Positions 23,078 to 33,055 of a stretch of DNA of 64,000 bases are shown here, one piece after another. Below the pieces are notes generated by a model. That model was not told the DNA's origin and searched no databases. It worked only from the letters and a program-made list of their open reading frames with translations. Made by a program: the position numbers and the translations under genes. The stretch's first letter is position 1; each line of letters opens with the position of its first letter. The stretch spans positions 1 through 64,000 of the forward strand of contig NZ_CP072829.1 of assembly GCF_017945865.1 (NCBI RefSeq), written 5' to 3'. The stretch is from Xiamenia xianingshaonis (lineage in GTDB: Bacteria; Actinomycetota; Coriobacteriia; Coriobacteriales; Eggerthellaceae).

Positions 23078-23330
23078 TATGAAGAAAATGTGTGCTAGAG
23101 ATTTTAGAGGCAATATTCAGTAACTCGTGCATCATTTTCTGACAGACGTGAAGAATATGCAGTTCCGCTTGCGGCAAAACATCTCTTTTAAGGGTGTTTT
23201 GCTGTGTTCAGCAGGGGTTTTGCCGGCGCCTGTCTGTTAAACTTGCTTTTCAAGATGTATTGGATGATAAAATGATGCGCGAATTGTCGGTTTTGTAGCA
23301 AATTGCATCACATACATAAAACCATCATAT
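23078..23330. repeat. Terminal-inverted-repeat element, copy A (degenerate)
   Basis: The left end TATGAAGAAAATGTGTGCTA matches the left ends of the other four copies. The inner motif GCATCATTTT (23129) is 51 bases in, and its complement AAAATGATGC ends at 23278, 52 bases from the right end. The right terminal repeat is eroded. Length 253 bp. The 23331-23455 remainder is AT-rich with no gene. Confidence 0.72.
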
Positions 23331-23455
23331 TTAGAAGTGTATATAATCGACTAAAAACTGCATAAAGCGGCATAAATCAATAACCTGATGGAATGCTCTC
23401 GGTTGAAGTGTCTCTCAATAGGCAAACACCGACGGACTGAGGCATTTTCACCTGC

Positions 23456-23903
23456 CGCGAATTCCCCTCTCGGGTTCGAATCCCTGCGAACGAAAGCGCC
23501 CTCAAGCTGCAAGCAACTGGGGGCGCAAGTACGTCTGGCGGAGGAAGTAGGATTCGGGAAACCTTCCTTCGGAAGATTTCCAGGCCTCGTCGCAAGCTCC
23601 TCGGCCGAATTCGCTACGAAAGCTTCGCTTTCGCTTTACGCGAATTCCCCTCTCGGGTTCGAATCCACGGAAACGAAAAACATCCCCGGCAGAAAGTCTA
23701 CCGAGGATGCGAATATACCTGGCGGAGGAAGTAGGATTCGGGAAATCTGCTTCGCAGATTTCCAGGGTTCGTCGCAAGCTCCTCACCCGAATTCGCTACG
23801 AAAGCTTCGCTTTCGCTTCACGCGAATTCCCCTCGCGGGTTCGAATCCTTTCGTCATGAAAAACATCCCCGGCAGAAAGTCTACCGGGGATGCAAGAACA
23901 ACC
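23456..23903. repeat. Tandem array of interrupted tRNA-Ser(UGA) 3' ends
   Basis: Read on the minus strand, the tRNA-Ser gene is followed by units of 184 bp (23717-23900 and about 23533-23716) plus a partial third (23456-about 23532). Each unit repeats the last bases of the tRNA, including CCA (TGGCGGAGGAAGTAGGATTCG on the plus strand), then a 115-bp insert bounded by GGATTCG and CGAATCC (for example 23734-23848), then a copy of the terminator hairpin. The insert contains hairpins GGAAATCTG/CAGATTTCC and CGAAAGC/GCTTTCG within GAATTCGC/GCGAATTC. The same insert occurs in the tRNA-Ser(GCU) array at 26.3-26.9 kb. Confidence 0.9.
23859..23892 (-). terminator. Terminator of tRNA-Ser(UGA)
   Basis: Minus strand CATCCCCGG, 11-base loop, CCGGGGATG, then TTTTT. 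A second copy with one stem mismatch is at 23676-23709 inside the next repeat unit, and a different hairpin (GCGCCC...GGGCGC, 23496-23526) takes its place in the outermost unit. Confidence 0.88.
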
Positions 23904-23991
23904 TGGCGGAGGAAGTAGGATTCGAACCCACGGAACCTTGCGGCTCAACAGTTTTCAAGACTGCCGCCTTCAACCACTCGGCCATTCCTCC
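23904..23991 (-). tRNA. tRNA-Ser (anticodon UGA)
   Basis: An 88-base minus-strand gene with acceptor GGAGGAA/TTCCTCC, discriminator G and encoded CCA. The anticodon loop CTTGAAA gives TGA. A long variable arm, typical of class II tRNA-Ser, and the T-arm with GGTTCGAATCC are present. The intact copy is the first of a tandem series of 3' ends. Confidence 0.95.
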
Positions 23992-26322: not shown

Positions 26323-26872
26323 AATGGCGGAGAGCTGGGGATTCGGAAAATCTGCTTCGCAGATTTTCAGGGTTCGGCGCAAGCGCCTCACCCGAATTCG
26401 CTAAAAACGCTTCGCGTTTTCTTGACGCGAATTCCCCTCTCGGGTTCGAATCCTCTGAAATGGCCTTGGCAATGCGAAGGTATCGGTTGTAGCAAAGAAT
26501 AATTAGAATGGCGGAGAGCTGGGGATTCGGAAAATCTGCTTCGCAGATTTTCAGGGTTCGTCGCAAGCTCCTCACCCGAATTCGCTACGAAAGCTTCGCT
26601 TTCGCTTGACGCGAATTCCCCTTGCGGGTTCGAATCCATGAAATGGCCTTGGCAATGCGAAGGTATCGGTTGTAGCAAAGAATAATTAGAATGGCGGAGA
26701 GCTGGGGATTCGGAAAATCTGCTTCGCAGATTTTCAGGGTTCGTCGCAAGCTCCTCACCCGAATTCGCTACGAAAGCTTCGCTTTCGCTTGACGCGAATT
26801 CCCCTTGCGGGTTCGAATCCATGAAATGGCCTTGGCAATGCGAAGGTATCGGTTGTAGCAAAGAATAATTAG
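26323..26872. repeat. Tandem array of interrupted tRNA-Ser(GCU) 3' ends
   Basis: Three units of 184, 183 and 183 bp begin at 26323, 26507 and 26690 with AATGGCGGAGAGCTGGGGAT, the 3' end of the adjacent tRNA-Ser on the minus strand. Units 2 and 3 appear identical throughout. In each the T-arm is interrupted after GGATTCG by a 115-bp insert (for example 26523-26637) almost identical to that in the tRNA-Ser(UGA) array. The outer 68 bp of each unit (ending with AATAATTAG) is specific to this locus and also flanks the real tRNA. Unit 1 differs from the others in the hairpin bases, with paired changes (AAAACGC/GCGTTTT in place of CGAAAGC/GCTTTCG). Confidence 0.95.
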
Positions 26873-26874
26873 AA

Positions 26875-26965
26875 TGGCGGAGAGCTGGGGATTCGAACCC
26901 CAGATACCCTTGTGGGGTATACTCGCTTAGCAGGCGAGCACCTTCGGCCTCTCGGTCAGCTCTCC
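26875..26965 (-). tRNA. tRNA-Ser (anticodon GCU)
   Basis: A 91-base minus-strand gene: acceptor GGAGAGC/GCTCTCC, discriminator G, encoded CCA; anticodon loop CTGCTAA gives GCT; long variable arm TACCCCACAAGGGTA; T-arm CTGGG GTTCGAATC CCCAG. It is the intact copy at the head of the 26.3-26.9 kb array. Confidence 0.95.
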
Positions 26966-31159: not shown

Positions 31160-32650
31160 CTACGCCAGGTTCGGCTCCTGGTCACGCCAGTCTTCTTTGA
31201 CGGTGCGCGGGGCCATGGCGTCTTCGGTGCCGGCGGCTTTCAGGCGGGCGAAGTAGTCGTTCGTCTCCTTCACGACTACGCCCGACAGCGCCACCAGCGC
31301 GATGATGTTCGGCAGCGCCATGAGGCCGTTGAAGATGTCGGCGATGGTCCACACGGCCGCGACGGTCATGTAGGGGCCGATGAACACGGCGGCAATGTAG
31401 AGCCAGCGGTACGCCTTCACCGCGCCCTGCGAGCCGTTGCTGAAGTACTCCAGGCAGCGCTCGCCGTAGTAGTCCCAGCCGAGAATGGTCGTGAAGCCGA
31501 ACAGCACCAGGCACACCATCAGGATGAACGCCACCATGCCCGGCGGCAGGAAGGGCAGGCCCGCTTGGAAGGCCGCCGTGGTGACGGCCGCGCCTTCAAG
31601 CCCTTCGATCTGGTAGGCGCCGGTCATGACGAGTGCGAGGCCGGTCATGGAGCACACGATGATGGTGTCCAAAAACGTGCCGGTCATGGACACGAGGCCT
31701 TGGCGCACTGGCTCCTTCGTCTGCGCGGCCGCGGCGGCGATGGGGGCGGAGCCCAGGCCGGCCTCGTTGGAGAAGATGCCGCGTGCGATGCCCATTTGCA
31801 TGGCGATCAGGATGGAGCCGAGCATGCCGCCGCCGAATGCCTGCAGGCCGAACGCGCCTTCGAAGATGGCGACGAATGCGCCGGGGATCTTGTCGATGTT
31901 CGTCAGCAGCAAGATGACCGAAAAGCCCACGTAGATGACGACCATAGCGGGTATGACGCGCTCGGACACCTTCGCAATGCGCTTCAGCCCGCCGATGACC
32001 ACCAGGCCCACGAGCACGGCCAGCACGAGCGACGAGATGACCGTGACGATCGAGTAATCCATGCCCAAAATGTTGACGCTCATGGTCATAGAAGGGTCAA
32101 AGAAGCCCTTGACGGCGCCGGTGATGGAGTTGACCTGCGTAAACGTGCCGATGCCGAACAGGCCGACGCACATGCCGAAGAAGGCGAACATCTTCGCGAG
32201 CCAGCGCCACTGCGGACCCATGCCGCGCTCGATGTAATAGAACGGGCCGCCGAGCACGTGTCCGTCTTTGCCGACGCTGCGGAATTTGACGGCCAGCAGG
32301 CCTTCGGCGTACTTCGTGGCCATGCCGAACAGCGCGGCGAGCCACATCCAGAACATGGCGCCCGGACCGCCCGCTACGATGGCCGTGCCGACGCCGACGA
32401 TGTTGCCGGTGCCGATCGTGGCCGACAGCGCCGTGCACAGCGCGCCGAAGCTGGTCACTTCGCCGGTTCCGTCTTTCTCATTGCGCGCCATGTAGCGCAG
32501 CGCCTGCCCCAGATGGCGGAACTGCAGGCCGCGCAATCGCACCGTCAACAGGATGCCGCCGAACAAGATGAGCACCATGAGGGGAACGCCCCAGATGAAG
32601 CCGTCGATTGCGACGAGAATCTCGTCGACGGTCGCAAAGAACTCTTCCAT
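31160..32650 (-). CDS. Sodium:alanine/glycine symporter (AGCS family)
   Basis: Imports alanine or glycine with sodium across the cytoplasmic membrane. The 496 residues have about eleven hydrophobic helices and the AGCS signatures: VTSFGALCTALSATIGTGNIVGVGTAI, GPGAMFWMWLAALFGMATKYAE, GGPFYYIERG and NEAGLGSAPIAAAAAQT. The ATG at 32650 has a long purine-rich ribosome binding site (aaggagaaggaag); an upstream start would add 14 residues. A glycine riboswitch aptamer is encoded in its leader, so glycine is the likely sensed and possibly transported substrate. Confidence 0.95.
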   Translation of the reverse strand: MEEFFATVDEILVAIDGFIWGVPLMVLILFGGILLTVRLRGLQFRHLGQALRYMARNEKDGTGEVTSFGALCTALSATIGTGNIVGVGTAIVAGGPGAMFWMWLAALFGMATKYAEGLLAVKFRSVGKDGHVLGGPFYYIERGMGPQWRWLAKMFAFFGMCVGLFGIGTFTQVNSITGAVKGFFDPSMTMSVNILGMDYSIVTVISSLVLAVLVGLVVIGGLKRIAKVSERVIPAMVVIYVGFSVILLLTNIDKIPGAFVAIFEGAFGLQAFGGGMLGSILIAMQMGIARGIFSNEAGLGSAPIAAAAAQTKEPVRQGLVSMTGTFLDTIIVCSMTGLALVMTGAYQIEGLEGAAVTTAAFQAGLPFLPPGMVAFILMVCLVLFGFTTILGWDYYGERCLEYFSNGSQGAVKAYRWLYIAAVFIGPYMTVAAVWTIADIFNGLMALPNIIALVALSGVVVKETNDYFARLKAAGTEDAMAPRTVKEDWRDQEPNLA

Positions 32651-32781
32651 GTCTTCCTTCTCCTTCGTCGTGTCGCAACGCGCGGGACGCACGACGACGA
32701 AAGGGAGAAGCCGGGGGAGACGGGACGCGGGCGAAAAGGCGTGAAGGCCGATTTGCTCGTGCGCGAGCCGTTGCGAGACGG

Positions 32782-32872
32782 CTCTGCTCTGTCCTTTTGC
32801 CTGAGAGTTTCAGCGGCCGTGTGCCGCCTTGCCCCTTCGGCACCTGCGCGGGCAGGATTCTCCAGAGGCCCC
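32782..32872 (-). promoter_or_regulatory. Glycine riboswitch (single aptamer)
   Basis: On the minus strand the conserved blocks appear in order: CTCTGGAGAATCC, then GGTGCCGAAGGGGCAAGG, then GCTGAAACTCTCAGGCAAAAG and GACAGAGC. This matches the glycine-aptamer core. Only one aptamer is recognisable, whereas many glycine riboswitches have two. A hairpin GAGCCGT/ACGGCTC (32765-32784) lies just downstream and may be the expression platform or a ghost-aptamer stem. The start of the symporter gene is about 130 bases further on. Confidence 0.93.
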
Positions 32873-33055
32873 TTCCGTGTCCTGTTTTGCCGGGCGTGCC
32901 GAGCAATCCAAGACCCATCATCGGGGTGCGCTGTGCATATGGCGCCCATTGTAGCGCTGGTTTGAGCGTTTGCAAGGCCTAAAAAGCAGAAATTTTTTGC
33001 CCCCGATGCGAGAGTGGCCCGTGCGGCTGCGGCGTGCGGGCTGGCGGGCGCCGTT

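Follow-up and report, generated by a model that had tools for sequence, protein, structure and literature searches.

What kind of element is the ~115-bp insert that recurs behind two serine tRNA genes of Xiamenia xianingshaonis (Eggerthellaceae, Coriobacteriia), and what determines its target? In the 64,000-nt stretch of DNA analysed (the window; NZ_CP072829.1, positions 1 to 64,000), two full elements and a truncated one lie behind tRNA-Ser(UGA), each separated from the next by a repeated tRNA 3′ end (TRF period 182 bp, 2.1 copies, score 615), and a second array, with a TRF period of 183 bp, follows tRNA-Ser(GCU) (Table 1). That the units behind tRNA-Ser(UGA) repeat its 3′ end and terminator, as recorded in the first-pass annotation, is borne out by the 21-nt repeats and by a terminator hairpin present in two copies. 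The near-identity of the insert between the arrays was likewise recovered: the Ser(UGA) elements are 96% (E 9e-47) and 88% (E 5e-32) identical to a Ser(GCU) element, values that exclude chance. The two genes, described there as unlinked, are close neighbours, ~2.9 kb apart on the same strand. Left arm GGATTCGAACCC of Ser(UGA) element 1 is the reverse complement of the T-arm, and helices P4 and P5 of element 2 carry compensatory changes. The ~183-bp repeat unit of the Ser arrays contains no integrase gene, and a phage source was rejected as the window array has no match in phage records.

Table 1 Features of the two tRNA-Ser arrays in the window.
Feature	Position	Strand	Basis
tRNA-Ser(GCU), host gene of first array	26875-26965	-	ARAGORN
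Ser(GCU) element 1	26705-26821	-	covariance model
Ser(GCU) element 2	26522-26638	-	covariance model
Ser(GCU) element 3	26338-26454	-	covariance model
Ser(GCU) tRNA 3′ end repeats, 21 nt	26692-26712, 26509-26529, 26325-26345	-	sequence
tRNA-Ser(UGA), host gene of second array	23904-23991	-	ARAGORN; Rfam tRNA
Terminator-like hairpin and T-run, between tRNA-Ser(UGA) and element 1	23863-23893	-	sequence
Ser(UGA) element 1, ~117 nt, five-helix fold	23733-23849	-	covariance model, 142.8 bits; folding
Ser(UGA) tRNA 3′ end, first repeat, last 21 nt, CGAATCCTACTTCCTCCGCCA	23720-23740	-	sequence
Terminator-like hairpin, second copy, diverged	23680-23710	-	sequence
Ser(UGA) element 2	23549-23667	-	covariance model, 134.2 bits
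Ser(UGA) tRNA 3′ end, second repeat, 21 nt	23536-23556	-	sequence
Ser(UGA) element 3, truncated at ~30 nt (left arm, first hairpin and P3 start only)	~23456-23484	-	sequence; BLAST

Elsewhere in the window, an AT-rich stretch (TATGCAG...TGATGCAATTT...; 23080-23400) resembles one lying 3′ of the Ala-UGC array (L012); occurring 3′ of two different arrays, these stretches possibly constitute another repeat family. An ordinary glycine riboswitch aptamer (32779-32875, minus strand, 58.6 bits) lies just 5′ of a minus-strand ORF (31160-32692) whose product resembles a sodium:alanine/glycine symporter.

Each unit consists of the tRNA 3′ end with trailer/terminator, then a left arm and multi-hairpin core, then the tRNA 3′ end again, and as this end is repeated after each core the host gene stays intact. 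The window element is predicted to fold into five helices round one junction (MFE -53 kcal/mol, z -3.9). P1 forms between left arm GGATTCG and its partner in the repeated tRNA end, CGAATCC; next come a small CCC-GNRA-GGG hairpin and a long one, then a helix whose GA-rich loop is symmetric (GAGGA/GACGA), and finally one more hairpin. In a 32-copy alignment 96.2% of cells are paired, 34 of 42 pairs show double changes and none of 500 shuffles reaches the score, figures that lean towards structure, the alignment having been fitted to the covariance model. Loops of the first hairpin are GNRA or GAUGA. Most loci have a clear terminator between tRNA and element, and arrays decay from the distal end, several finishing in a truncated left half.

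Restriction to class II tRNA-Ser, proposed at first pass as the target rule, is rejected by the other hosts in the same genome. In this 2.26-Mb single-contig genome copies follow Ser-UGA, Ser-GCU, Ser-CGA, Lys-UUU, Lys-CUU, Ala-UGC, Ala-CGC, Ala-GGC, Arg-ACG and Gly-CCC, while Gly-UCC has a left-arm remnant only; at least ten tRNA loci and one remnant are thus involved, with one to three units each (14 covariance-model matches). The dispersed copies found by BLAST all lie 3′ of tRNAs in one orientation, the lone exception without a tRNA being an 18-nt match (E 0.44). Among 40 sampled genomes of the family, hosts comprise 11 amino-acid types and tmRNA. There, 109/115 copies follow a same-strand tRNA, with the first unit usually 45-72 nt 3′ of it, and the last 17 nt of the host tRNA are repeated with 0-1 mismatch in 103 of the 109 tRNA-linked copies. 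tmRNA hosts account for two of the 115 copies (L112, L081) and for five from other families (L284, L286, L287, L298, L294); in Collinsella-type genomes the tmRNA-linked left arm is, for example, GAGAATCGAACTC. A target rule does exist, with the same core at the same T-arm position in tRNAs with different flanks. The first-pass annotation had weighed against it the prospect of copies behind many tRNA types at varying positions: the types are indeed many, but the position is constant. Given so many tRNA types plus tmRNA as hosts, it is the T-arm/acceptor 3′ end in its own right that serves as target, and to it the left end of the element is fitted. The earlier reading of the Ser arrays is therefore partly supported, in that a real pattern was correctly seen and too narrowly read.

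At two loci of the window’s genome, the Ala-CGC array (L008) and the Ser-CGA array (L010), elements are adjoined by the same sequence (GGCATATAGGCAAAAAAGTGTGTAAGGCTCAGTCCGTCGC...), at one of them inside palindromic P3; it is probably an IS end, and the elements may attract insertion sequences. At another locus (L066; G002:C37), element and repeat stand behind an apparent tRNA 3′ half with AT-rich DNA on its 5′ side, an arrangement that may mark the far end of an integrated element.

The covariance model finds the family in 66/138 genomes of Eggerthellaceae and in 135/396 genomes of class Coriobacteriia; of 396 genomes sampled from the phylum, only nine were positive, all of the same order as the window’s genome. 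Matches in an exact consensus-pattern scan of genomes are mostly from Eggerthellaceae (including Slackia, Hugonella and Enterorhabdus), besides a few scattered MAG matches that may be due to chance.

In these genomes the left arm is the host’s own T-arm in reverse complement, in many cases extending into the acceptor stem, and it pairs with the repeated tRNA end, closing the five-helix junction. Examples are GAGACTTGAACTC behind Asp, GGACTCGAACCT behind Lys-CUU and GGGATCGAACCC behind Ala-UGC. Mismatches to the own T-arm average 0.36 in 10, compared with 1.34 when tRNAs are shuffled (0/2000 shuffles as low), and for 38 tRNAs with unusual T-arms the values are 0.37 to the own and 1.66 to the common arm. 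The longest exact complement has a median of 12 nt and a maximum of 20 nt, reaching the acceptor stem.

Arms that track T-arms almost perfectly, double changes that far outnumber single ones in the helices, and copy numbers that vary between close species (close congeners of Collinsella type have either one or two units at Gly-CCC) are consistent with a passive product, in which recombination and quasi-palindrome (fold-back) repair together amplify the units and keep the arms complementary, with no function and no selection on RNA. However, repair of a double-strand palindrome predicts as many A-C as G-U cells, and two model-fitted alignments contain 14 A-C and 171 G-U cells. The excess favours a sense-strand fold as the form that is kept and argues against a pure DNA palindrome, which was rejected. 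Class-wide conservation of the core, including the non-helical motifs GNRA and GAGGA/GACGA, also speaks against a passive origin, which we consider decidedly improbable.

A different consequence of the fitted arm emerged from equilibrium folding of the read-through transcript, where the left arm pairs with the upstream T-arm and not with the repeat. The T-stem pairs with the left arm in 70/87 loci, and T-stem pairing within the tRNA falls from 0.66 in the tRNA alone to 0.06. The left arm, in effect a T-arm antisense (median 12 nt), might accordingly capture the upstream tRNA, block its folding and so tune tRNA or tmRNA supply. However, the tRNA is synthesised and folded first, whereas the calculation ignores the order of synthesis and its energy model omits modifications and tertiary contacts; the terminator should also make read-through rare, and the repeat mattered little (0.62 with it, 0.52 without). 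Such a switch in tRNA dosage seems very improbable. Folding gave no support to a protective role of the repeat, by which the tRNA would be shielded from the left arm, and this idea was rejected.

Cores group by genome and arms by tRNA. On the core tree, genome labels require 56 changes, compared with 73.4 when shuffled (0/200 as low) and 72.2 when shuffled within anticodons, while anticodon labels require 65 changes, compared with 67.5 (31/200 as low, not significant). The likeness of cores within genomes across different tRNAs points to spread or concerted evolution, and clustering by genome and not by tRNA agrees with the initial suggestion that the insert had moved independently or that the arrays had been seeded in trans. 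Presence is patchy: congeners G001 and G003 have no element at any of 75 retrieved tRNA genes (not quite all of theirs), and the Leu-UAA locus is occupied in 6/12 genomes of one genus. Comparison with empty sites did not resolve a junction to the base, since the flanks have either diverged or retained remnants.

This patchiness among congeners, the homogeneity of cores within genomes and the truncated copies at array ends would also be expected if the element were miniature mobile DNA whose transposase or recombinase recognises folded single strands (as REP/REPIN with TnpA-REP, or attC-like), with insertion into the T-arm duplicating the tRNA end and no role for the RNA. Hairpin loops of the element are mostly triloops, 134/245 of which are of the cGNAg type. 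Triloops of this type are very stable in DNA single strands as well, and the element may therefore have a role at the DNA level, a point against a role for trailer RNA. On the other hand, G-U exceeds A-C twelve to one, the first-hairpin tetraloops are GNRA and not any GNNA, and a linked REP-associated transposase, which the first-pass annotation had suggested looking for, is not supported. The Y1 transposase domain (PF01797) is absent from the window’s genome, for which a TnpA-REP link was rejected, and from element-carrying G067, G108, G078 and G110, and it is present in several genomes with few or no elements. REP/REPIN elements are likewise small palindromic repeats dispersed within a genome, but the Coriobacteriia element is tied to tRNAs in one orientation, and we know of no tRNA-end duplication and no arm rewritten to fit the target in REP/REPIN (TnpA-REP, RAYT). 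Tyrosine-integrase elements in tRNA genes also leave the tRNA 3′ end in duplicate; they differ in being kilobases long, with an integrase and without a conserved folded core. In one such case (L331; G326:C33), an element of ~5 kb lies in tRNA-Gly(CCC) between the tRNA and the array, and its identity block is longer than that of the Coriobacteriia element and begins in the anticodon arm; an origin as a tyrosine-integrase mini-element was rejected on account of this different block, which also counts against the mobile-DNA reading. Overall, a mobile DNA element with no role for its RNA appears unlikely.

The closest architectural counterparts are the ‘tRNA-linked repeats’ (TLRs) of E. coli, for which PMC8144298 was the only source found in a literature search to describe this kind of repeat. 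According to that paper, which cites Egan and Landy 1978 and Rudd 1999, 22 TLRs occur at ten loci, often in tandem, their last 18-19 bp corresponding to the 3′ end of the upstream tRNA or rRNA gene, with no known function in tRNA operons. 5S-linked TLRs (rrA/B/F) are described there as transcribed by read-through, with ends attributed to RNase E cleavage, and as binding Hfq and CsrA in vitro, and processing by the tRNA 3′-processing machinery is proposed for RrB. The defining feature, 3′-end identity with the upstream gene, is present in the Coriobacteriia element, and in the window’s genome several tRNA loci are likewise occupied, each by one to a few units. In contrast, the Coriobacteriia element belongs to another phylum and class, its core sequence and helix order differ, it has 11 amino-acid types and tmRNA as hosts, and the duplication includes the trailer/terminator. 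The fit of left arm to T-arm quantified here does not appear in the available part of the TLR description (PMC8144298). A 5S-linked TLR of E. coli has no strict inverted left arm, and the arm rule may therefore hold only for tRNA and tmRNA hosts.

RtT (RF00391), a subclass of the TLRs, is similar in having ~178-bp units and a left arm that can pair with the repeated tRNA end and so close a multi-hairpin core, but it has the GA-rich helix last and an extra hairpin. In the annotated RtT of E. coli K-12 tyrT/tyrV, left arm GGGGAAGGAT has its pairing partner, ATCCTTCCCC, in the repeated tRNA-Tyr end. RtT-type units also occur in Klebsiella and Salmonella behind Tyr, Pro, Lys, Ser and Arg tRNAs (shorter in Lys), with left arms that match the host (GAGGAT/ATCCTC, GGGGGGAT/ATCCCCCC, GGGAGGAT/ATCCTCCC). 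The existence of the class-wide Coriobacteriia family suggests that RtT exemplifies a broader architecture and is not a peculiarity of tyrT. A 17-mer, GAGGAGCGAAGCGACGA, is common to an E. coli RtT copy (L208 1364-1495, tyrT-tyrV spacer) and the Ser-CGA element, and as a link between the two is suggestive only. Neither covariance model recognises members of the other family, the Coriobacteriia model reaching RtT without significance, and RF00391 has no match at E <= 1 in the window’s genome, the window included. Membership in RF00391 or another Rfam family was rejected for lack of a match, and this counts against the TLR assignment to the extent that the likeness is one of architecture and not of demonstrated common descent. 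Judged from sequence and predicted fold, the Coriobacteriia element is a class-wide TLR-type family, TLR-like in architecture and unmatched by the RF00391 model, and it is filed as such and not as an orphan transposon.

On balance, it is probable that these TLR-type elements give a processed, structured trailer RNA, with the core spreading or being converted within each genome. Beyond the observed architecture, covariation, fitted arm and clustering by genome, we infer the following. Read-through of the tRNA terminator would generate a 3′-trailer RNA that folds on the sense strand, and the tRNA 3′-processing machinery could cleave this RNA at the repeated tRNA end, by analogy with RrB of E. 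coli; any function is putative. Within one genome, the core would pass between tRNA loci by copying or conversion, and the left arm would be re-made at each locus to fit the local T-arm through structural selection and/or fold-back templated repair, and units would multiply by recombination between direct repeats and decay from the distal end. The clear terminator at most loci, the pairing of the left arm with the upstream T-arm in equilibrium folding, and the failure of the search for PF01797 in genomes to reveal an enzyme that moves the core weigh against this reading. It is very improbable that the element is itself mobile by RNA templating, its trailer RNA with the tRNA 3′ end pairing or being copied at T-arms of other tRNA or tmRNA genes so that the target writes the left arm at insertion; if true, both targeting and end formation would follow from pairing with the universal T-arm.

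In E. coli, tandem repeats downstream of tRNA genes have a record that goes back to 1978, and those in tRNA operons are still without a known function; what is new is a class-wide family in another phylum, in gut Coriobacteriia. It comes with a measurable rule, that the left arm copies the host T-arm while the core follows the genome. As a second family with many hosts, and with occupied and empty sites among congeners, it offers natural replicates for distinguishing RNA function, mobility and passive repair. The Coriobacteriia family extends the functionally orphan TLR kind into a new class, with a testable rule.
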